64,000 nucleotides of DNA from positions 62,001-126,000 of the forward strand of contig NZ_JAIMCG010000012.1 in the NCBI RefSeq assembly GCF_019795295.1, in the 5' to 3' direction. The notes beneath the pieces were generated by a model. It saw nothing but the letters and a program-made list of their open reading frames with translations, did not search any database and was not told the origin of the DNA. This document shows positions 36,718-46,474 of the stretch, one piece after another (the first letter of the stretch is position 1; every line of letters starts with the position of its first letter). A program made the position numbers and the translations under genes. The DNA comes from Cupriavidus sp. AU9028 (GTDB lineage Bacteria > Pseudomonadota > Gammaproteobacteria > Burkholderiales > Burkholderiaceae).

Positions 36718-37614
36718 TTACAGGTCGGTGCGCAGCTTCCACAGCTCGGGGAACAGCACCACGTCGAGCATCTTGCGCAGATAGCTGACGCCAGCGGTGC
36801 CGCCGGTGCCGCGCTTGAAGCCGATCACCCGTTCGACCGTGGTGACATGCCGGAAGCGCCATTGGCGGAAGGCGTCCTCCAGGTCGACGAATTTCTCGCC
36901 CAGTTCGTACAGTTGCCAGTGCGCCTCGGGTTTGCGGTAGATCTCCAGCCAGGCGGCTTCGACCGACGCGTTCTCACCGGCCGGCTGGGTCCAGTCGCGC
37001 TCGACGCATTGGGGGTCGATGGCGAAGCCGCGGCGCGCCATCAGGCGGATGGCCTCGTCGTACAGCGATGGCGTGCGCAGCGCCTCCTCGACCAGCGCGT
37101 GATGCTCGGCGCGATGGGCATGCGGGCGCAGCATCGCGGCGTTCTTGTTGCCGAGGATGAACTCGATCTCCCGGTACTGGAAGGACTGGAAGCCGGACGA
37201 CATGCCCAGGTACGGCCGCATCGCCGAGTACTCGGGCGGCGTCATCGTGGCGAGCACATTCCACGCCTGCACCAGCTGGTCCATGATGCGCGAAACTCGG
37301 GTCAGCATCTTGAAGGCCGGCGGCAGATCGTCGCGCTTGACCGCCTCGCGCGCCGCGCGCAGCTCGTGCAGCATCAGCTTCATCCACAGTTCGGTGGTCT
37401 GGTGCTGGACGATGAACAGCATCTCGTTGTGATCGGGCGAGAGCGGATGCTGCGCGTTCAGGATCTGGTCCAGCGCCAGGTAGTCGCCGTAGCTCATCTG
37501 CTGCTCGAAGGACATCTGGGCGCCGTGCCACTGGGCGTCCTTCGATGCGTCCCCGTGGAAGGGGCAGCCGCCTGCGGGGCTGGCCGGTGCGTCGTTGCTG
37601 TTGCCGGATTGCAT
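36718..37614 (-). CDS. kynA: Tryptophan 2,3-dioxygenase
   Basis: 298 residues from the ATG with AGGA eight bases upstream; an ATG five codons earlier (37629) is also possible. Haem enzyme opening the indole ring of tryptophan to N-formylkynurenine. Family segments are [70 protein letters not shown], and the substrate-binding [32 protein letters not shown] contains the proximal haem histidine. The N-terminal CPFHG is seen in Cupriavidus proteins. Third gene of kynB-kynU-kynA. Confidence 0.97.
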
Positions 37615-37666
37615 TTGTGGGTCCTGCATGGTTGTTGCGTGGTGGCGAGGGCAGCCGTGCGGCCAG

Positions 37667-38923
37667 TTACGTTACCGCCCCGCGTTCCTGGAACGCCGGG
37701 TCGCGCCACTGCTCGCCGTCGAGCACGTCCCGCAGCGCCTCGACTGCATCCCAGACATCGGCAAAGCCGGTGTACAGCGGCGTGAAGCCGAAGCGCATGA
37801 TGTTCGGTTCACGATAGTCGCCAATCACGCCGCGCGCGATCAGGGCCTGCACCACGGCGTAGCCTTCGGGATGGGCGAAGCTGACCTGGCTGCCGCGGCA
37901 GGCGTGCGCGCGTGGCGTGACCAGCGTCAACGGATGCCGCCCGCAGCGCGATTCCACCAGTTCGATGAACAGGTCGGTCAGCTGCAGCGACTTGGCCCGC
38001 AGCGCCTGCATGTCGGTGCGCGCGAAGATCTCCAGCCCACACTCCACCATGGCGAGCGACGTGATCGGCTGGGTGCCGCAGAGGAATCGCGCGATGCCCG
38101 GGCGCGGGCGGTAATGCGGCTCCATCGCGAACGGCTGCGCATGACCCCACCAGCCGGACAGGGGTTGCCAGAAGGCGTCGCGCAGCGCCGGGGCGACCCA
38201 CAGGAAGGCCGGCGCGCCGGGGCCGCCGTTCAGGTACTTGTAGGTGCAGCCGACCGCGTAGTCGGCGCCGCAGCCGTTCAGCGACACCGGCACGGCGCCG
38301 GCCGAATGCGCCAGGTCCCACACCGTCAGTGCGCCCCGCGCGTGCGCCAGCTCGGTCAGCGCCGCCATGTCGAGCATCTCGCCGCTGCGGTAGTTGACGT
38401 GGGTCAGCATCAGCACCGCGACGTCCTCGCGCACCGCGGCGTCGATGGCGTCCGGAGAATCGACCAGGCGCAGGCTGTAGCCCTGCTGCAGCAGGTCGGC
38501 CAGCCCCTGCGCGATATAGAGATCGGTGGGGAAGTTGCTGCGCTCGGACACGATCACCTTGCGCGCGGGATCGCGCTGTCCCTGCACGCGCAGCGCGGCG
38601 GCCAGTACCTTGAACAGGTTGGCCGAGGTGGTGTCGGTCACCACCACTTCGTCCGGACCGGCGCCGATCAGCGGCGCCAGCAGGTTGCCCAGCCGCTGCG
38701 GCAGCGCGAACCAGCCGGCGGTATTCCAGCTGCGGATCAGGCCCTCGCCCCATTCCTGCTCCACCACCAGGGCGGCACGGGCAGCGGCCGCGCGCGGGCG
38801 CGCGCCCAGCGAATTGCCGTCGAGGTAGATCACGCCCTCGGGCAGCGCGAAGGCCGTGCGCAGGGGGGCCAGAGGATCTTGCCGGTCCAGTGCCAGGCAT
38901 TGCTCGCGGGTTTGGATCGTCAT
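37667..38923 (-). CDS. kynU: Kynureninase
   Basis: 418 residues. PLP enzyme cleaving kynurenine to anthranilate and alanine. Seen are [107 protein letters not shown], and the Schiff-base lysine in [36 protein letters not shown] and [13 protein letters not shown] close the list. All key residues are intact. Lies 48 bases after kynB and 52 before kynA. Confidence 0.98.
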
Positions 38924-38971
38924 GGTGTCCGGTTCGATTTGCAGTGGAAGGGCGGGGAAATTGGCCGCGGT

Positions 38972-39643
38972 TCAGCGCAGGCTGCGCAGCACGGCGCGCA
39001 CGGGGCTGGCGTCCAGGGTGGCGAAGCGCAGCGGCAAGGCGATCAGCTCGTAGTCGCCGGGCGGGACCGCATCGAGCACCAGTCCTTCGAGAATCGCCAT
39101 GCGGTGCCGGTGCACGGTGTGATGCGCGTCCATGGTTTTCGACTGCTGCGGGTCGAGCGACGGCGTGTCGATGCCGACCAGCCGCACGCCATGCGCGGCC
39201 AGCCGATCGAGCGTGGCCGGGGCGACCGCGCAGAAGTTGGCGTCCCAGCTCGCCAGCGGTGCGTTGGCGTAGGTCCGCAGCAACACGCGCGGCGGCACGC
39301 CATCGAGCTGGCCCTCCAGGTGCGCCGGCTCGACCAGCGGCGACGCGCCGATGCAATGGATGACACGGCAAGGGCCGAGGTAGGCGGTCAGGTCGACTTC
39401 GCCGATCGGTACGCCGGCGGCGTCGTAATGCAGCGGGGCGTCGGCGTGCGCGCCGGTGTGCGGCGACAGCGTGATGCGTCCGACGTTGACGGGGCAATGC
39501 TGGTCAAGCTGCCAGGCGACCTCCTGCCGGAAGGGCGTGTCGCCCGGCCAGACCGGCGTGGCCGGCGACAGCGGCGGACTGATGTCCCACAGCCGGCGCT
39601 GTTCCGAGTGGTGCAAGGCTTCCGAGGCGATGGCGTGGTCCAT
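38972..39643 (-). CDS. kynB: Kynurenine formamidase
   Basis: 223 residues, the bacterial zinc-type formamidase (cyclase family). Hydrolyses N-formylkynurenine to kynurenine and formate. The signature [16 protein letters not shown] carries the HxGxHxDxPxH metal site. [20 protein letters not shown] at the N-terminus and the C-terminal [27 protein letters not shown] are typical. First gene of the kyn operon; the divergent kynR lies 143 bases away. Confidence 0.97.
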
Positions 39644-39679
39644 GGTCAGGCGCGCGCGGCGGCGACGGTCGGGATGGGG

Positions 39680-39753
39680 GCATGATAGTCAATCTCGCCT
39701 CGAATGAGCTTGCTATCTGGTGGGGCGAAACGCGGAATAGTCGAATATCATGC
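39680..39753. promoter_or_regulatory. Candidate KynR-binding region between kynB and kynR
   Basis: GCATGATA (39680-39687) recurs as its exact reverse complement TATCATGC (39746-39753), 58 bases apart. ATAGTC also repeats at 39685-39690 and 39737-39742. Spaced palindromic half-sites across a divergent promoter fit an Lrp-family octamer that wraps DNA. Lrp-type KynR is known to activate kyn genes in related bacteria; the sites here are my proposal. Confidence 0.45.
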
Positions 39754-39786
39754 GAGGAATTCAAGAAATCAGGCAAGAATTTTCGA

Positions 39787-40284
39787 ATGAACCTCGACGC
39801 CACCGACCTGCGCATCCTCGAGTGCCTGCAAAGGAATGGGCGCATCAGCAACCAGGAACTGGCCGAGCGCGTGGCGCTGTCGCCATCGGCTTGCCTGCGG
39901 CGCGTTCGCCTGCTGGAAGAGAGCGGCATCATTGGCGGCTATCACGCCTGGTTCGACGCCGAGCGGCTGGGGCTGGAGCTGGAAGCCATCGTGCAGGTGT
40001 CGATGCGGCATGACGTGGAGGGCTGGCACGACACCTTCAACGCCGCGGTGCAGGGCTGGCCGGAGGTGCTGTCCGCCTATGTGATCACCGGCGATAGCAA
40101 TTACATCCTGCGCGTGCAGGCGCGCAATCTGAAGCACTACTCGGACTTCATCGTGAACCGGCTGTATCGGACGCCGGGCGTGATGGATATCCGCTCCAAC
40201 ATCGTGCTGCAGCGGATCAAGACCGGGGGATCGCCGCTGGCGCTGCTGCAGCCCGGCGCCCCCCGCGACACGGTGCCGGGCTGA
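39787..40284 (+). CDS. kynR: Lrp/AsnC-family regulator of the kynurenine operon
   Basis: 165 residues from MNLDATDLRILECLQRNGR, the classical Lrp start; upstream in-frame codons are promoter sequence. The helix-turn-helix NQELAERVALSPSACLRRVRLLEESG is at residues 20-45 (read in two pieces). The RAM effector domain follows: LELEAIVQVSMRHDVEGW, EVLSAYVITGDSNYILRV and YSDFIVNRLYRTPGV. Divergent from kynB, as in other beta-proteobacteria where KynR responds to kynurenine. Confidence 0.92.
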   Translation: MNLDATDLRILECLQRNGRISNQELAERVALSPSACLRRVRLLEESGIIGGYHAWFDAERLGLELEAIVQVSMRHDVEGWHDTFNAAVQGWPEVLSAYVITGDSNYILRVQARNLKHYSDFIVNRLYRTPGVMDIRSNIVLQRIKTGGSPLALLQPGAPRDTVPG

Positions 40285-40308: not shown

Positions 40309-40746
40309 CTAGCGCGTGGTGCCGGCGTGCAGTGCGATCAGCCGCCGCAGCGTCTGCTTGAGCCGTTCGCTGTCGCTGCCGCCGAAGGCGGCCAGCACCT
40401 GGGCTTCGTGCGCCGCCGCCTGCTGCAGCAGCGGCTGCGCGCGCTGGCGGCCACTGTCGGTGATCGACACCAGCGCATGGCGGCGATCCGGCGCGCTCCC
40501 GCGATGACGCACCACCAGCCCGTCCGCCTGCATGCGGTCGATCAGCTTGGTCAGCGTCGGCTGCTTGGTCAGCGTGATGTCGGCCAGCGTGCCCACCGTG
40601 CAGGCCTCGCGGTCGGCCAGCGTGGCCAGTACCCGCCATTCCGGCACGCTCAGGCCCGCCGCCTCCACCTTGCGATGGAATTCGCCGGAGATCAGGTGGC
40701 TGGCTCGCGCAAGCAGATAGGGCAGGTAGCCGTCGACGAAGGTCAT
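40309..40746 (-). CDS. MarR-family regulator of the NicX-like catabolic island
   Basis: 145 residues, winged helix: YLLARASHLISGEFHRKVEA (dimer helix), SVPEWRVLATLADREACTV, LADITLTKQPTLTKLIDRM (recognition helix) and the wing VRHRGSAPDRRHALVSITDSG. MarR repressors respond to aromatic acids or their CoA esters. It lies 40 bases downstream of the flavin-reductase gene, in one unit with it. Both are divergent from the dioxygenase operon, whose control region contains overlapping palindromes. The nicotinate regulator NicR is also of this family; orthology is not claimed. Confidence 0.9.
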   Translation of the reverse strand: MTFVDGYLPYLLARASHLISGEFHRKVEAAGLSVPEWRVLATLADREACTVGTLADITLTKQPTLTKLIDRMQADGLVVRHRGSAPDRRHALVSITDSGRQRAQPLLQQAAAHEAQVLAAFGGSDSERLKQTLRRLIALHAGTTR

Positions 40747-40786
40747 GGTCGGTCCGTGCCCGCCCGCCGCTGTGCTGTCGCGCCGC

Positions 40787-41341
40787 TCAGTCGCGCAGCG
40801 GACAGATGGTGGAAAACTCGCCGCTCTGGAAGATCAGCGGCAGCCCGCCGCCTTCGCGAATGCCGCAGCGCTCGACTTCGCCGACGAAGATCACGTGATC
40901 GCCTTCGTCATAGCGGCTGCGGTTGTGGCATTCGAACCAGGCCAGCGCATTGCCCAGGATCGGCAGGCCGGTCTCGGACAGCCGGTAGTCGACGCCGGCG
41001 AAGCGGTCTCCCTTGAGCGTCGCGAAGCGCTGGCACAGGTCCAGCTGCGTGGCGGCCAGCACGTTGACGATGTAGTGCGAACCGCCGCGGAACATCGGCA
41101 GGCTGTTGGCGCTGGTGGCCATGCTCCACAGCACCAGTGGCGGGTCCAGCGAGACCGAGTTGAACGAGCTGGCGGTGACGCCAACGAACGGCGGGTCGCC
41201 GGCCGTTTGCCGGATCCCGCGTGTGGTGATCACGGTTACGCCGGTGGCGAACTGCGACAGCGCGCGGCGGAAGTGCCGGGCATCGAAGTCGGGCGCGGCG
41301 GCCTGACCCTGGCGGGACGGGTTGGTGTCAGGCAATCCCAT
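40787..41341 (-). CDS. NAD(P)H:flavin oxidoreductase (HpaC-like reductase component)
   Basis: 184 residues from ATG 41341; an ATG eight codons earlier lies inside a palindrome and is less likely the start. Single flavin-reductase-like split barrel: FDARHFRRALSQFATGVTVIT, GVTASSFNSVSLDPPLVLWS, FRGGSHYIVNVLAATQLDLC, RFATLKGDRFAGVDYRL, LAWFECHNRSRYDEGDHVIFVGEV. These proteins hand reduced FMN or FAD to a separate oxygenase. Here the only plausible partner is the acyl-CoA-dehydrogenase-fold protein across the divergent promoter. The insert RQTAGDPPFV is slightly unusual. Confidence 0.88.
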   Translation of the reverse strand: MGLPDTNPSRQGQAAAPDFDARHFRRALSQFATGVTVITTRGIRQTAGDPPFVGVTASSFNSVSLDPPLVLWSMATSANSLPMFRGGSHYIVNVLAATQLDLCQRFATLKGDRFAGVDYRLSETGLPILGNALAWFECHNRSRYDEGDHVIFVGEVERCGIREGGGLPLIFQSGEFSTICPLRD

Positions 41342-41357
41342 AGCTGAGGCACCACTG

Positions 41358-41380
41358 AATTTCATGAAATTTCATATATT
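41358..41380. promoter_or_regulatory. Overlapping palindromes, candidate MarR operator
   Basis: AATTTCATGAAATT (41358-41371) and ATGAAATTTCAT (41364-41375) are both perfect palindromes and share eight bases. TATATT (41375-41380) follows as a possible -10 for the plus-strand operon. This A/T-rich island stands out in a region of very high G+C and lies between the flavin reductase and the dioxygenase genes. Confidence 0.6.
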
Positions 41381-41521
41381 ATTGGCGCCAGACGGGGGAA
41401 TCACAAGCGCCGCGGCCATTGCGCTGGCGGCGGCGTCGGGCGCGCCGTTCTCTCTCGACTGCCCGAAACCCGCAACAGTCATGCCCGGTGTCCGGCGGGC
41501 CGCGCCGTCAGGAGGAGAGAC

Positions 41522-42598
41522 ATGCTGCTCGAGCAGATCGAACATCGCTGGCTGGCGGCCTTTCGCCGCACGCTGGAGCTTTGCGCGCTGGCGCCCGGCG
41601 ATGTGGTAGGGATTGTAACGGAGTCGCAATCCCGACAAGTCCTTGTGGAGTTGGCCGACCTGGCGGTGCAGGCGATGGGAGCGACGCCCGTTCGCCTGCG
41701 CGTGCCGACGCCCGCGCTCGACGTGCCGGCGCCGGTGCGCTCGACCGGGGCCAGCGACGCGCTGCAGCAGCTGGAGCCGGTGATCGCGGCGCTGTCGCGC
41801 TGCCAGCTGGTACTCGACTGCACGGTGGAGGGCCTGCTGCATGCGCCAGAGCTGCCGCGCATTCTGGCGGGCGCCGACGGCGTGGTGCCCCGCCTGCTGA
41901 TGATCAGCAACGAACATCCGGAAATCCTCGAACGCTGCCTGCCCGATGCCCAGCTGGAAAGCACGGTCCGGGCGGCAATGCGGCGGCTGCGCGGTGCGCG
42001 CCAGATGCAGGTGAGCTCCGCCGCCGGCACGTCGCTGCAGATCGGCCTGGACGGCGCCCGCGTCGGCGGGGTCTGGGGCTACTGCAACAAGCCAGGCCAG
42101 GTCGCCCACTGGCCGGGCGGCCTATGCCTGGCCTTCCCCGGCGCCGGTCAGGTCAGCGGCACGCTGGTGCTGGCGCCGGGCGACGTCAACCTGACCTTCA
42201 AGACCTATCTGCGCGACCGCATCGTCTGCCAGATCGAGAACGACCATATCGTCGCCATCGAGGGCAGCGGCGTCGATGCGGAGATGATGCGCGGGTACTA
42301 CGCGGCGTGGGCGGATCGCGAGGGCAGCCAGGCCGCCTATGCGGTGTCGCATGTCGGCTGGGGGCTGAACCGGCGCGCGCGCTGGGATGCGCTGGCCTTC
42401 TACGACAAGCGCGACTGCAACGGCACCGAGCTGCGCGCCTTCGCCGGCAACTTCCTCTATTCGACCGGCGCCAACGAGGTGGCGGGCCGGCACACGCTGG
42501 GCCACTTCGACCTGCCGCTGCGCAACTGCACGGTCGCGCTCGATGGCGTGAACGAGGTCGATCAGGGCCAGCTGGTGGAGCCGGGCGCCCAGGGGTAA
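41522..42598 (+). CDS. NicX-like extradiol dioxygenase homologue (2,5-dihydroxypyridine dioxygenase family)
   Basis: 358 residues. Collinear with NicX, the Fe(II) enzyme that opens 2,5-dihydroxypyridine to N-formylmaleamate, throughout its C-terminal two thirds: GTLVLAPGDVNLTFKTYLRD, SHVGWGLNRRARWDA (His277), RAFAGNFLYSTGANEVAG and GHFDLPLRNC (His328, Asp330). HWPGG (His196) is kept. The Glu I recall in NicX just before this (TEYGYADEP) is replaced here (GVWGYCNKP), so the metal site or substrate may differ. The N-terminal third is divergent. Often mislabelled leucyl aminopeptidase. First gene of a four-gene operon; 38 bases before the NicD-like hydrolase. Confidence 0.8.
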   Translation: MLLEQIEHRWLAAFRRTLELCALAPGDVVGIVTESQSRQVLVELADLAVQAMGATPVRLRVPTPALDVPAPVRSTGASDALQQLEPVIAALSRCQLVLDCTVEGLLHAPELPRILAGADGVVPRLLMISNEHPEILERCLPDAQLESTVRAAMRRLRGARQMQVSSAAGTSLQIGLDGARVGGVWGYCNKPGQVAHWPGGLCLAFPGAGQVSGTLVLAPGDVNLTFKTYLRDRIVCQIENDHIVAIEGSGVDAEMMRGYYAAWADREGSQAAYAVSHVGWGLNRRARWDALAFYDKRDCNGTELRAFAGNFLYSTGANEVAGRHTLGHFDLPLRNCTVALDGVNEVDQGQLVEPGAQG

Positions 42599-42635
42599 CG
42601 TCAACGCCTTCCCTTCCGTCACGAGACACGCTTCC

Positions 42636-43472
42636 ATGCCAACCGATCCGGACGCCTTGCCCTCTCCCCAACTGCAGCGCCATGCCAACGGCATCGCCAC
42701 CCTGACCGCCGGCACCGGGCCGGTGGCGCTCGTGCTGCTGCACGGGATCGGCGGCGGCAAGGCGGCCTGGCCCGGACAGCTCGCCGCACTGGCCGCGTGC
42801 GGCTACCGGGCGGTGGCGTGGGACATGCCCGGGTACGGCGACTCGCCGCTGATCGACCCCTACGACTTCGCCGCACTGGCGGCGGCGCTGGTGCCCGTGC
42901 TGGATGCCGAGCGGCAGCAGGGCCGCCGCGTGGTGCTGCTCGGGCACAGCATGGGCGGCATGGTGGCGCAGGAAGCCTGCGCGGCCACGCCGGAGCGGAT
43001 CGACGGCATGGTGCTGTCGGGCACGTCGGCCGCCTTCGGCAAGCCGGATGGCGACTGGCAGCAGGAGTTCGTCGCCGCCCGCACCGCGCCGCTGGATGCG
43101 GGGCAGAGCATGGCGTCGCTGGCCGCCAGCCTGGTGCGCGGCATGGTGGCGCCCGATGCGCCGGCCGAGGGAGTGGCGCTGGCCACCTCGGTGATGGCGG
43201 CCGTGCCGCCGCAGACCTATCGCGCCGCGCTCGGTGCGCTGGTGCGTTTCGACCGGCGCGAGGCGCTTGGCCGCATTGCCGTGCCGGTGCTGCTGCTGGC
43301 GGGCGAGCACGACCGCAATGCCGCGCCGGCGGTGATGGAGCGGATGGCGCCGCGCATCGCCGATGCCGAATACCGGTGCCTGCCAGGCGTCGGCCACCTG
43401 GCCAACATGGAACGGCCGGACCTGTTCAATGCCGCGCTGCTGGACTTCCTGCAGCGCCGCTTTCCGCTGTGA
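42636..43472 (+). CDS. Alpha/beta hydrolase, NicD (N-formylmaleamate deformylase)-like
   Basis: 278 residues. Canonical alpha/beta-hydrolase: oxyanion LLHGIGGGKAAW, AWDMPGYGDSPL, nucleophile Ser105 in LLGHSMGGMVAQEA, Asp226 in LLLAGEHDRNAAP, His254 in LPGVGHLANMERPDLFN. Next to a NicX-like dioxygenase the natural reading is hydrolysis of the N-formyl or amide product of ring opening, as NicD does. The family also contains 3-oxoadipate enol-lactonases and C-C hydrolases, so the reaction is an inference from context. Cytosolic; 60 bases before the next gene. Confidence 0.82.
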   Translation: MPTDPDALPSPQLQRHANGIATLTAGTGPVALVLLHGIGGGKAAWPGQLAALAACGYRAVAWDMPGYGDSPLIDPYDFAALAAALVPVLDAERQQGRRVVLLGHSMGGMVAQEACAATPERIDGMVLSGTSAAFGKPDGDWQQEFVAARTAPLDAGQSMASLAASLVRGMVAPDAPAEGVALATSVMAAVPPQTYRAALGALVRFDRREALGRIAVPVLLLAGEHDRNAAPAVMERMAPRIADAEYRCLPGVGHLANMERPDLFNAALLDFLQRRFPL

Positions 43473-43532
43473 TGACCACGCCGGCCTGACCGAACGCTCC
43501 GATCGGCACAGCCGCCCTTGCGAGGAACCCCG

Positions 43533-44777
43533 ATGCAGCTCGACTTCATTCCGGCCGTTGGCGAGGCCGATTTCACCGAGGCGCAGGCGCGCCTGCTGTC
43601 GTTGGCCAACCGGCTGGGCCGCGAGCGCTTCGCGCCGCGGGCGGCGCAGTGGGACCGCGAGGCCAGCTTCCCCTTCGCCAACTACGACGACCTGCGCGAG
43701 GCCGGCCTGCTGGCGCTGTGCGTGCCGCGCGAATTCGGCGGGCAGGGCGCGGATTTCGCCACCTATTGCATGATCGGCGCGGAGATCGGCCGCTTCTGCG
43801 GCGCCACCGCGCTGACTTACAACATGCACATCTGCTCGACGATGTGGACAGGCGTGCTGGCCGACGGCATCCCGATGACGCCCGAGCAGCGCAAAGAGCA
43901 TGCATCGCGCCGCGGCCTGCATTTCGAGCGGGTGGTGCGCGACGGCGCGGTCTACGCGCAGCCGTTTTCCGAAGGATCGGCCGCGGCCGCCGGCAAGGCG
44001 CCCTTCGGTACCGCGGCGCGCAAGGTCGAGGGCGGCTGGGTGCTCAATGGCCGCAAGATCTTCGCCTCGCTGTCGGGCGCGGCCGATTACTACGGCATCC
44101 TTTGCACCGAGGACCGCGGCGACCAGCATCCCGACATGCGCGACACGCTCTATATCGCGGTGCCCGCCAGCGCCGAGGGCGTGACGGTGACGGGCGACTG
44201 GGACCCGATGGGCATGCGCGGCACGGTGTCGCGCACGCTGCTGCTCAAGGACGTGTTCGTCGCCGACCACGAGCAGCTGATGCCGCGCGGGGTCTACTAC
44301 AAGGCCGCGCAGACGTGGCCGGCGATGTTCTTCACGCTGTCGCCGACCTACCTGGGCATCGCGCAGGCCGCATACGATTTCACGGTGCAGTACCTGCGCG
44401 GCGAGGTGCCGGGCCAGCCGCCAGTCAAGCGGCGGATGTACCCGACCAAGCAGATCGCGGTGGCGCAGATGCGCATCCAGCTCGAATCGATGCGCTCGCT
44501 GTTCTGGCGGGCGATCCATGAAGCCGGCCCCAATCCGTCGCGCGACCAGCGTCTGCGCCTGTACGCCGCCCACTACAGCGTGATGGAGGGCGCCAACGAT
44601 ATCGCCCGGCTGGCGATCCGCACCTGTGGCGGCCAGTCGATGCTCAAGGACCTGCCGCTGGAACGGCTGTATCGCGATTCGCGTTGCGGCGCGCTGATGC
44701 TGCCGTGGACGGCCGAGCTGATCCTCGACCGGATGGGGCGGGAAACGCTGTACGAGCCGGGCGAGCGCGACGAATGA
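43533..44777 (+). CDS. Acyl-CoA-dehydrogenase-fold flavoprotein, possibly a monooxygenase
   Basis: 414 residues from ATG 43533 (GAGGAA upstream). All ACAD domains are there: N-terminal helices (LREAGLLALCVPREFGGQGA), middle barrel (PFSEGSAAAAGKAPFGTAARK, GGWVLNGRKIFASLSGAADY), C-terminal helices (YTKQ-like YPTKQIAVAQMRIQLESM, YSVMEGANDIARLAIRTCGG). Where dehydrogenases have the catalytic Glu in a YEGT motif, this protein reads RDSRCGALMLPWTAEL (381-396), with no equivalent Glu. That pattern is shared with ACAD-fold flavin monooxygenases which use a separate reductase, and one is encoded across the promoter. A dehydrogenase role is not excluded. Its stop overlaps the ligase start (ATGA). Confidence 0.8.
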   Translation: MQLDFIPAVGEADFTEAQARLLSLANRLGRERFAPRAAQWDREASFPFANYDDLREAGLLALCVPREFGGQGADFATYCMIGAEIGRFCGATALTYNMHICSTMWTGVLADGIPMTPEQRKEHASRRGLHFERVVRDGAVYAQPFSEGSAAAAGKAPFGTAARKVEGGWVLNGRKIFASLSGAADYYGILCTEDRGDQHPDMRDTLYIAVPASAEGVTVTGDWDPMGMRGTVSRTLLLKDVFVADHEQLMPRGVYYKAAQTWPAMFFTLSPTYLGIAQAAYDFTVQYLRGEVPGQPPVKRRMYPTKQIAVAQMRIQLESMRSLFWRAIHEAGPNPSRDQRLRLYAAHYSVMEGANDIARLAIRTCGGQSMLKDLPLERLYRDSRCGALMLPWTAELILDRMGRETLYEPGERDE

Positions 44778-46474
44778 CGATGGCAGATCGACCCTCCGGC
44801 GATGCAGCGGGGCCGGCGCGCAAGCAGCGGGGCCGCGGCGCCGGGGGGCCGCCCCACATCGGAGCGGACCGTCTCGGCGCGCTGCTCAAGCCGCTGCATG
44901 CGCTGGCACTGGCCGAGCCGTTGCGCCCGGCGCTGGACTTCCAGGGCAGCACCATCGGCTACGGCAAGCTGTGGAGCCGCATCGAACGCGTCACTGCCCA
45001 CCTTGCTGCGTCCTGGGACGTCGGCAAGGGCGACCGCGTGGCGACGCTATGCTTCAACCACGACCTGCAGCTGGCGATGCTGTTCGCCTGCGCTCGCCTC
45101 GGGGCGATCTTCCTGCCGCTGAACTACCGGCTCGCCGTGCCCGAACTGGCCACGATCGCCGCGCATGCTGGCGTGCGGGCGATCTTCCACGACGACGCGC
45201 ACGCCGGGCTGGCCGATGCGGTATGCATGCAACTGGGCGAGGCCGCCGCCGCCGGCGCCGCGCAGATCCTCGCCGATCCGATCGCCGGCACGATGGTGCC
45301 GGCCGCATTGCCGCAGGCACCGGCGCACGCGCATATCGACCGGCTGATCGACCGCGCCGCGCCAGCCGACCCGGACCCCGGGCCGATGCCGGACGATACA
45401 CCGGTGCTGCTGGTGTACACCTCCGGCACCACCGGGCAGCCGAAGGGGGCGCTGCATACGCAGGCGGCGCTGCTGGCCAATGCCCGCGCCAGCTGGTGGG
45501 CGCACGGGATGACGGGCGACGACCATGTCCTGAGCACGTTGCCGCTATTCCATGTCGGGGGCCTGTGCATCCAGACGCTGCCCGCGCTGCTGGCCGGCGC
45601 CCGCGTCACGCTGCACGAACGCTTTGCGCCGGCCGACTGGCTGGACGCGGTGGCGCACGCCAGGCCGACGCTGTCGCTGATGGTGCCCGCTACGCTGCGG
45701 GCGGTGCTGGAGCACCCGGCGTGGCCGGGCACCGACCTGTCCTCGCTGCGCGGGGTGATGGCCGGCTCGTCGACCATACCGCTCGCCTATATCGACGCCT
45801 TTCATGCGCGCGGGGTGCCGCTGGGCCAGATCTATGGCGCCACCGAGACCGGTCCGGTGTCCGTGGTGCTGCGCCTCGATCAGGCGATGGCGCGGCCGGG
45901 GTATGCCGGCTGGCCGCAACCGGAGGCGCAGGTACGCCTGACCGCCGAGAACGGCAGCGAAGTGGCCGACGGCGAGGTCGGCGAGATCTGGCTGCGCGCG
46001 CCCAACCTGATGCGCGGGTACTGGCGCGACCCGGCGCATCCGGCCTTCGTGGACGGGTGGTTCCGTTCCGGTGACCTGGCGCACCGCGACGTCGATGGCT
46101 GCATCGAGGTGGTGGGGCGCAGCAAGGACATGATCATCTCCGGTGGCGAGAACATCTATCCGGCGGAGATCGAGAACGAACTGGTGGTGCTGCCCGAGGT
46201 CGGTGAATGCGCCGTGGTCGGGCTGCCGGATCCGCGCTGGGGCGAAGTGCCCGTCGCCGCGATCGTGCCGGCGAGCGGAGCCGATCCGGCGCGGCTGCAG
46301 CCCGAGGCGATACGCGAGGCGCTGTCGGCACGGATCGCCCGCTTCAAGCTGCCGCGCGAGGTGGTGCTGGTCGATGCGCTGCCCAAGAGTGCGCTGGGCA
46401 AGGTGGTCAAGCCGCGCCTGCGAGCCATGCTGGAGGCGGCGCGGCGCGACGGCGGTCCGGCGCCCGCTCCCTGA
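44774..46474 (+). CDS. AMP-dependent acyl/aryl-CoA ligase
   Basis: 566 residues; the ATG lies in the stop of the preceding gene. Adenylate-forming enzyme: LLVYTSGTTGQPKGALHTQA (P-loop), STLPLFHVGGLCIQTLPAL, IYGATETGPVSVVLR, EIWLRAPNLMRGYW, GWFRSGDLAHRD, and the catalytic lysine region LPKSALGKVVKPRLR. The first 30 residues are Gly/Arg-rich and disordered. Presumably it activates the substrate acid of the island as a CoA thioester before hydroxylation and ring opening. Acid specificity (aryl or alkyl) cannot be deduced. Confidence 0.87.
   Translation: MTMADRPSGDAAGPARKQRGRGAGGPPHIGADRLGALLKPLHALALAEPLRPALDFQGSTIGYGKLWSRIERVTAHLAASWDVGKGDRVATLCFNHDLQLAMLFACARLGAIFLPLNYRLAVPELATIAAHAGVRAIFHDDAHAGLADAVCMQLGEAAAAGAAQILADPIAGTMVPAALPQAPAHAHIDRLIDRAAPADPDPGPMPDDTPVLLVYTSGTTGQPKGALHTQAALLANARASWWAHGMTGDDHVLSTLPLFHVGGLCIQTLPALLAGARVTLHERFAPADWLDAVAHARPTLSLMVPATLRAVLEHPAWPGTDLSSLRGVMAGSSTIPLAYIDAFHARGVPLGQIYGATETGPVSVVLRLDQAMARPGYAGWPQPEAQVRLTAENGSEVADGEVGEIWLRAPNLMRGYWRDPAHPAFVDGWFRSGDLAHRDVDGCIEVVGRSKDMIISGGENIYPAEIENELVVLPEVGECAVVGLPDPRWGEVPVAAIVPASGADPARLQPEAIREALSARIARFKLPREVVLVDALPKSALGKVVKPRLRAMLEAARRDGGPAPAP

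Follow-up and report, generated by a model that had tools for sequence, protein, structure and literature searches.

Two aerobic routes of bacterial auxin degradation, iac and iad, have been described. The iad route uses the Rieske oxygenase IadCDE (IadDE with the reductase IadC), the ligase IadF, the thiolase IadG, the dehydrogenase IadH and the amidase-like IadI, and the iad locus of Variovorax is controlled by IadR, an auxin-binding repressor which binds indole-3-acetate (IAA) at 0.41 uM (PMC9613470). The iac route, to which IacCDEF also belong, ends at catechol and has a MarR regulator in most of its loci. It includes the acyl-CoA dehydrogenase (ACAD)-type flavoprotein IacA with the flavin reductase IacG, Rieske subunits, a short-chain dehydrogenase/reductase (SDR) and an amidase (PMC11676955). 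Indole degradation by the iif/ind systems employs a two-component flavin oxygenase and yields anthranilate (PMC6221969). These statements, and those cited below, follow the background literature (PMC8879955, PMC7910607, PMC12633357, PMC11630574, PMC9613470, PMC11676955 and PMC6221969). In a stretch of 64,000 nucleotides from Cupriavidus sp. AU9028 (contig NZ_JAIMCG010000012.1, positions 62,001 to 126,000; the whole stretch is called the window), we found a module of six genes encoding a MarR-family regulator, a flavin reductase, a NicX-family dioxygenase, an alpha/beta-hydrolase, an ACAD-fold flavoprotein and a CoA ligase. We propose, with a probability of about 0.5, that these genes encode a CoA-dependent route which is neither iac nor iad and which would convert IAA or a close indole acid to anthranilate. 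The gene content and the kind of switch are clear, and the chemistry, the substrate, the order of steps and the products are inferred. As supposed in the preliminary description of this DNA, made from the letters alone, the CoA ligase, the two-component-type flavin oxygenase and the NicX-family dioxygenase form one conserved unit; no description of the gene set was found in the available portions of the open-licence PMC literature, which is a weak sign of novelty.

Results

The regulator and its operator supply the strongest evidence for the proposed route. The best PDB matches of the module MarR were IadR of Variovorax paradoxus CL14 (7kki and 7kfo, 128 bits; the mutant 7krh, 124 bits), followed by a Ruegeria pomeroyi protein (3cdh, 112 bits), and all other chains listed scored below 57 bits. 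In IadR, S28, H32 and R46 contact the carboxylate of IAA, and Y15 and W45 are among the indole contacts (PMC9613470). The window MarR retains Y15, S28, H32, W45 and R46, with V65 replaced by Ile, and the set S28, H32, W45 and R46 is complete in it and in 64 of the 77 MarR rows aligned; four of the 77 loci are not module loci, and some loci are represented twice. Such a MarR is carried by 24 plasmid records, six of which were inspected. Four of the six (Labrenzia, Roseibium and two Sulfitobacter loci) were iad-type operons with a reductase, Rieske alpha and beta subunits, an AMP-binding ligase, a thiolase and an SDR, and the two whose fetched stretch reached far enough also had a cyclase-family gene; a Burkholderia multivorans plasmid locus had no annotation. 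On a Caballeronia plasmid (L158:7880-18411) the IadR-like MarR stands with an AbmA-like fused hydroxylase/reductase in a cluster that is not an iad-type operon and that also holds thioesterase, cupin, FAH, carbon-nitrogen hydrolase, Asp/Glu racemase and indolepyruvate oxidoreductase genes; it is possibly a 5-hydroxyanthranilate branch.

When the intergenic regions between the divergent genes were searched for palindromes, repeats of the TATGAAATTTCATA type appeared at several module loci and at both of the iad loci examined. Of 83 upstream regions, 39 matched the motif ATATGAAATTTCATAT with at most three mismatches (37 of the 81 module regions and both iad regions, Labrenzia exactly), against a chance expectation of 0.06 of 83 regions in mononucleotide shuffles, the motif being derived partly from the same regions and related loci not being independent. 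Under the same limit the window holds a single site, with 2 mismatches (mean 0.00 in 100 shuffles), and the whole source genome, which was analysed as 42 contigs totalling 4.68 Mb, the window lying on contig C3, holds three such sites, the other two at contig C3 12990 and contig C22 327811. The same type of pathway might serve another tryptophan-derived or plant indole or quinoline acid, such as indole-3-carboxylate, indole-3-propionate, kynurenate or quinaldate, in place of IAA. We regard this as a lesser possibility that deserves to be kept in view: IadR has been crystallised with ten auxin and aromatic ligands (PMC9613470), IadR A18 is Tyr in the window MarR, and the module adjoins kyn genes in Cupriavidus, against which stand the iad-type operons that such MarRs head in four of the six plasmid loci, two of them sharing the operator.

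The dioxygenase belongs with NicX by sequence and differs from it in the active site. It had no Pfam or NCBIfam match at E 0.001 in the scan of the locus proteins, and a search of the source genome with the PF02073 (M29) profile found nothing, so the enzyme lies outside that model. Its best PDB match was 7cn3, the 2,5-dihydroxypyridine 5,6-dioxygenase NicX of Pseudomonas putida. In NicX the iron ligands are H265, S302, H318 and D320, and E177 binds N1 and O1 of 2,5-dihydroxypyridine (PMC7910607). The window enzyme retains the equivalents of all four ligands and of L104, H105 and H189, and the equivalent of E177 is Val184. Among the 83 module-type rows of the residue alignment, which omits L052 (frame too long) and does not contain L118, the four ligands were all present in 82, and the E177 position was Val in 60, Gly in 18, Thr in 3, Asn in 1, Ala in 1 and Glu in none. 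The exception for the ligands, L075, has a frame disrupted in its C-terminal part and is apparently a broken copy. Glu occupied the position in all six rows adjoining NicE/NicD/NicF relatives, four of which also had NicC and Mo-hydroxylase relatives (L112 and L115 had none), and Gln was found in L116 and L123. At L116:8082-15734 (Cupriavidus genome G019) this further NicX-like gene lies near its own flavin reductase, an ACAD-like gene and a branched-chain-type ABC transporter, and no NicE, NicD, NicF or NicC relatives were found at that locus. In the midpoint-rooted FastTree tree, where L112, L118 and L119 duplicate L025, L023 and L024 and loci L021-L030 are without annotation, the 17 NicX-type sequences formed one clade (support 0.999). 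All 104 sequences that have an ACAD partner fell in a separate clade (0.943), together with 13 for which no partner was detected. Judged from sequence, the module dioxygenase is NicX-like and yet probably not a nicotinate enzyme.

The source genome encodes a second NicX, 37-39% identical to the module dioxygenase, on contig C14, where it adjoins NicE-, NicF- and NicC-like genes, Mo-hydroxylase-type subunits and a NicD-like frame (named from families and layout). The preliminary description had held the nicotinate genes to be absent, which is correct for the ten locus proteins that were scanned (no nicA/B, nicC, nicE, nicF or nicD) and does not hold genome-wide. It had also named a grouping of the dioxygenase with NicX, plus a nic cluster elsewhere in the genome, as a reason to doubt its core idea; such a cluster exists, but the module dioxygenase stands apart from the contig C14 NicX in the tree, and the core idea therefore survives. 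The substrate class it had favoured, a CoA-activated pyridine or other N-heteroaromatic acid, is the least probable of the readings weighed here. The only solved dioxygenase relative found does act on 2,5-dihydroxypyridine, but the ten proteins scanned at the locus include no maleamate or maleate gene, the module enzymes form their own clade, and the pyridine or nicotinate reading is unsupported because a separate nic-type cluster exists and the E177 equivalent is missing in 83 of 83 module-type sequences. With moderate confidence we replace the nicotinate-like reading by one in which an indole acid is converted to anthranilate. The link to tryptophan-derived acids, already suspected in the preliminary description, is supported by the IadR-like regulator, its operator and the neighbouring kyn and abm genes.

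The evidence from neighbouring genes is good, but not universal. A locus was counted as a module locus if it held a dioxygenase at least 50% identical across half or more of the length (114 loci, of which L082/L137 and L093/L094 are identical pairs; several contigs are too short for all genes). The kynA, kynU and kynB genes adjoin the module in Cupriavidus and in a Pandoraea metagenome-assembled genome (MAG), together 12 of the 114 loci. In Limnohabitans and relatives the module adjoins a set headed by a gene matching the NCBIfam model 'bifunctional salicylyl-CoA 5-hydroxylase/oxidoreductase' (1352 bits, cut-off 1078), a fusion of FAD_binding_3 to Oxidored_FMN, and including SDR, enoyl-CoA hydratase, ACAD and benzoate-type ligase genes. 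We take this set to be the abm genes of anthraniloyl-CoA (2-aminobenzoyl-CoA) metabolism, which the naming of abm genes for C. metallidurans supports. The strain for which they were named showed no growth with anthranilate as the sole source (PMC8879955). A relative of AbmA (at least 44%) was found in 20 of the 114 loci, including six of L142-L148 and also L068, L117, L126 and L127, and relatives of the hydratase and the SDR in all seven of L142-L148; the glutamine-synthetase-type loci L154 and L155 also have an AbmA relative and lie outside the 114 through the 50% limit. Genes of kyn or abm type adjoin the module in four or more settings that differ in arrangement, and none of the nine NicX-type control loci had them. 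In the source genome five abm-type genes stand together on contig C33. The module, with its anthranilate-producing kyn and its abm-type neighbours, might attack anthranilate itself: anthraniloyl-CoA would undergo hydroxylation, the NicX-like enzyme would open the ring, and the route would offer an alternative to abm. We consider this unlikely, as the regulator is IadR-like, the neighbouring abm-type sets often have their own ligase, and the module would be redundant because the source genome already has the five abm-type genes.

The layout given in the preliminary description was confirmed by open reading frames (ORFs) and Pfam, including the 4-base stop/start overlap of the ACAD-fold and ligase genes and the kyn operon beside the module. 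Gene calls at the locus were made from the ORF list with Pfam and NCBIfam scans of the ten proteins (Table 1). The MarR and reductase genes are transcribed leftward, divergent from the rightward unit of four genes, in which gaps of 37 and 60 bases precede the overlap. The flavin reductase may start at Met 41341 instead of the first ATG, because the putative operator overlaps the latter, and the ACAD-fold gene has an alternative TTG start at 43518. The reductase matched FerA/HsaB-type NCBIfam models below cut-off. The kynA, kynU and kynB products are NCBIfam equivalogs above cut-off, and the Lrp/AsnC-type regulator was assigned by Pfam.

Table 1 Module features and adjoining genes, in positions of the window
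Feature	Position	Strand	Remarks
MarR-family regulator	40309..40746	(-)	145 aa; Pfam MarR; nearest solved relative IadR of Variovorax
Flavin reductase, proposed oxygenase partner	40787..41365	(-)	192 aa; PF01613 E 3.6e-37
Putative MarR operator, palindrome TCATGAAATTTCATAT	41362..41377	no strand	match to ATATGAAATTTCATAT
NicX-family non-heme Fe(II) dioxygenase, proposed ring-opening enzyme	41522..42598	(+)	358 aa; PDB 7cn3 E 2.6e-49
Alpha/beta-hydrolase, proposed deformylase or C-C hydrolase	42636..43472	(+)	278 aa; Pfam Abhydrolase_6
ACAD-fold flavoprotein, proposed oxygenase component	43533..44777	(+)	414 aa; Pfam ACAD domains
Acyl/aryl-CoA ligase, AMP-binding	44774..46474	(+)	566 aa; PF00501 E 1.3e-77
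kynA, kynU, kynB, then Lrp/AsnC-type regulator	36718..40284	kyn genes (-), regulator (+)	context, outside the module

The hydrolase had been called NicD-like, and the alpha/beta-hydrolase fold stands. A specific kinship to NicD found no support, since its similarity to four NicD candidates of Cupriavidus nic-type loci was slight in blastp (21-29% over the best stretches, E 0.002-0.021) and the likeness is one of fold only; its best NCBIfam models were PcaD-type, below cut-off, and its sequence carries GHSMG and GVGH motifs. The ACAD-fold protein had its best PDB matches in 5gj7 and 5z8t (124 bits), and the catalytic Glu of the YEGT motif is missing (LMLPWTAEL versus IYEGATEV in the abm-type ACAD). 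An ACAD relative on a Dolichospermum plasmid stands alone, with no other module genes. The module ligase shared 27-32% identity with two ligases of iad loci and 29% with the ligase of abm type.

A genome search for the six-gene set, as the preliminary description had suggested, showed that the module recurs with variants in Burkholderiales and Alphaproteobacteria. The ten nearest named dioxygenase copies (82-85%, among the best 80 of 231 relatives) were nine from Cupriavidus and one Burkholderiaceae record. The dioxygenase was present at 80% or more in 19 of 36 Cupriavidus genomes, the source genome included. In wider samples a match at E 1e-90 was found in 19 of the 399 genomes taken from the order and in 23 of the 397 taken from the phylum. 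The dioxygenase and the ACAD protein are the most constant pair: of the 114 loci, 101 had a detected ACAD relative (at least 50%), 97 a hydrolase and 68 a ligase (at least 38%). A variant on Ensifer/Aminobacter plasmids and in relatives combines the dioxygenase and the ACAD protein with a longer hydrolase, TetR, a glutamine-synthetase-family ligase, a flavin reductase and an APC permease, has no CoA ligase, and perhaps acts on an amine substrate. It was seen at L120:14001-21729, L121:8263-20376 and L151-L155, with the permease in L120, L121 and L151-L153; L121 and L151-L153 adjoin a cupin and an FAH gene, and L154 and L155 adjoin abm-type genes. The Pusillimonas/Thauera variant, also without ligase, has the dioxygenase, hydrolase, ACAD protein, flavin reductase, a periplasmic binding protein and a Zn-alcohol dehydrogenase. 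At its loci (L084:8998-18560, L090, L093, L096 and L097, including a Burkholderiales MAG) the reductase and the binding protein lie downstream, and the Zn-alcohol dehydrogenase is present in most. In the seven-genome group L142-L148 the module is split around opine-dehydrogenase-like and 3-hydroxyacyl-CoA dehydrogenase genes, and genes for an IlvD-type dehydratase and an NMT1-type binding protein, as well as a second ACAD-type gene, are found nearby. At L037 the ACAD protein and the ligase were each matched in two pieces, apparently a broken copy, and a protein near the module at L060:5853-7169 has a below-cut-off likeness to leucine-rich-repeat effector models. Housekeeping neighbours at some loci (D-Ala carboxypeptidase, DNA polymerase III delta', ylqF and truC) gave no hint of a substrate.

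Discussion

In the proposed route the IadR-like MarR would repress both divergent units until the acid binds. The ligase would act first and turn the indole acid into its acyl-CoA, after which the ACAD protein and the flavin reductase would introduce a hydroxyl group into the pyrrole ring of the indole, the enol of oxindole-3-acetyl-CoA being one example of a product; an ACAD-type flavoprotein with a flavin reductase, IacA with IacG, also serves the IAA route iac. On 2,5-dihydroxypyridine NicX cleaves the C5-C6 bond, the hydroxylated carbon becoming a carboxyl and its neighbour a carbonyl (an N-formyl group). By analogy the NicX-family enzyme would cleave C2-C3 of an indole hydroxylated at C2 (the oxindole enol) or C3, which would offer a similar C(OH)=C bond beside the fused benzene ring, and the small residue replacing E177 may leave room for that ring. 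From the oxygenated indole-3-acetyl-CoA, ring opening would produce 2-aminobenzoylacetyl-CoA or the N-formyl form of it, from which the hydrolase could remove the C1 unit or split the beta-keto side chain, yielding anthranilate, acetyl-CoA and C1. The anthranilate would then enter the 2-aminobenzoyl-CoA (abm) pathway of the source genome.

Several observations weigh against this proposal. None of the four module enzymes has a close counterpart in the iad operons that were compared, and IAA as the substrate therefore rests on the regulator. The B. japonicum MarR 7kym, which is also counted as an IadR (PMC9613470), scored only 32.8 bits, so the kinship of the module MarR is to the Variovorax type (and Ruegeria) and weak to B. 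japonicum. The Tyr at A18 differs from IadR, but also occurs in the Labrenzia and Sulfitobacter iad MarRs. S28 is absent from 13 of the 77 MarR rows, and seven of these also lack H32 (L020, L068, L117, L127, L129, L133 and L140, L020 being equal to L117), with Tyr/Phe for S28 and Asp/Glu for H32; this suggests that the MarRs at those loci respond to other inducers. L117 and L127 still have a ligase, and at L129, L133 and L140 none was detected. The substrate range of NicX is narrow (PMC7910607), ligase-free variants of the module occur, and there is no transporter gene among the proteins identified beside the module. AbmA was found in 35 of 36 Cupriavidus genomes, whether or not they carry the module, and its presence therefore does not track the module within the genus. 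In 77 of the 114 loci none of AbmA, the hydratase, the abm ligase and kyn was found within the fetched stretch, several contigs being short. Together with the MarR variants that lack the carboxylate residues, these 77 loci could mean that the module is an unrelated aryl-acid pathway with a borrowed IadR-like regulator and incidental anthranilate neighbours; the recurrence of abm or kyn genes beside the module in differently arranged settings makes this improbable.

Conversion of an indole acid to anthranilate remains the reading we prefer. In its fullest form, which we put forward tentatively and hold rather more doubtful than not, the module would be a third aerobic bacterial auxin route, with IAA-CoA as intermediate, oxygenation by a two-component flavoprotein, pyrrole opening by a NicX-family dioxygenase without the pyridone-binding Glu, anthranilate as the end and an IadR-type switch, and the glutamine-synthetase-like versions may treat tryptamine-like amines alike. 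If so, freshwater, marine and soil bacteria would share this third route, and the set of genomes counted as auxin degraders would change. The NicX family would gain a non-pyridine substrate, none having been met in our searches, and tryptophan, auxin and anthranilate metabolism would be joined by a readily testable link.

As compared to iad, the module shares the IadR-type MarR, a CoA ligase, an operator resembling that of the two loci compared, and anthranilate, here a proposed product. The Rieske, thiolase and SDR proteins of the Labrenzia locus are without match to the module enzymes, and the ligases are only distantly alike. The Pfam scan found no Rieske oxygenase in the module, and the best match in the source genome to the Labrenzia alpha subunit, 31% over about 106 residues, is not convincing as an iad-type enzyme. 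By its available description, iac resembles the module in the ACAD-type flavoprotein with flavin reductase and in the MarR of most loci, and differs in its catechol product, its Rieske, SDR and amidase proteins, and in having no CoA ligase or NicX-type enzyme. The iif/ind systems, again by description, have in common with the module a two-component flavin oxygenase and anthranilate (for the module a proposed product). With iifC/iifD they combine an SDR and further enzymes, another oxygenase among them, in place of the CoA ligase and the NicX-type enzyme, and Pfam found no SDR among the six module genes. With NicX the module dioxygenase shares the sequence family, the four Fe ligands and, in the window protein, the equivalents of H189 and L104/H105, and differs in the replacement of E177 by Val, Gly, Thr, Asn or Ala, in its separate clade and in its partners. 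The abm pathway has another oxygenase, a fused FAD/old yellow enzyme (OYE) protein, and in the source genome it is a separate gene set on contig C33; it is like the proposed route in metabolising anthranilate at the CoA level, and in several lineages its genes adjoin the module.

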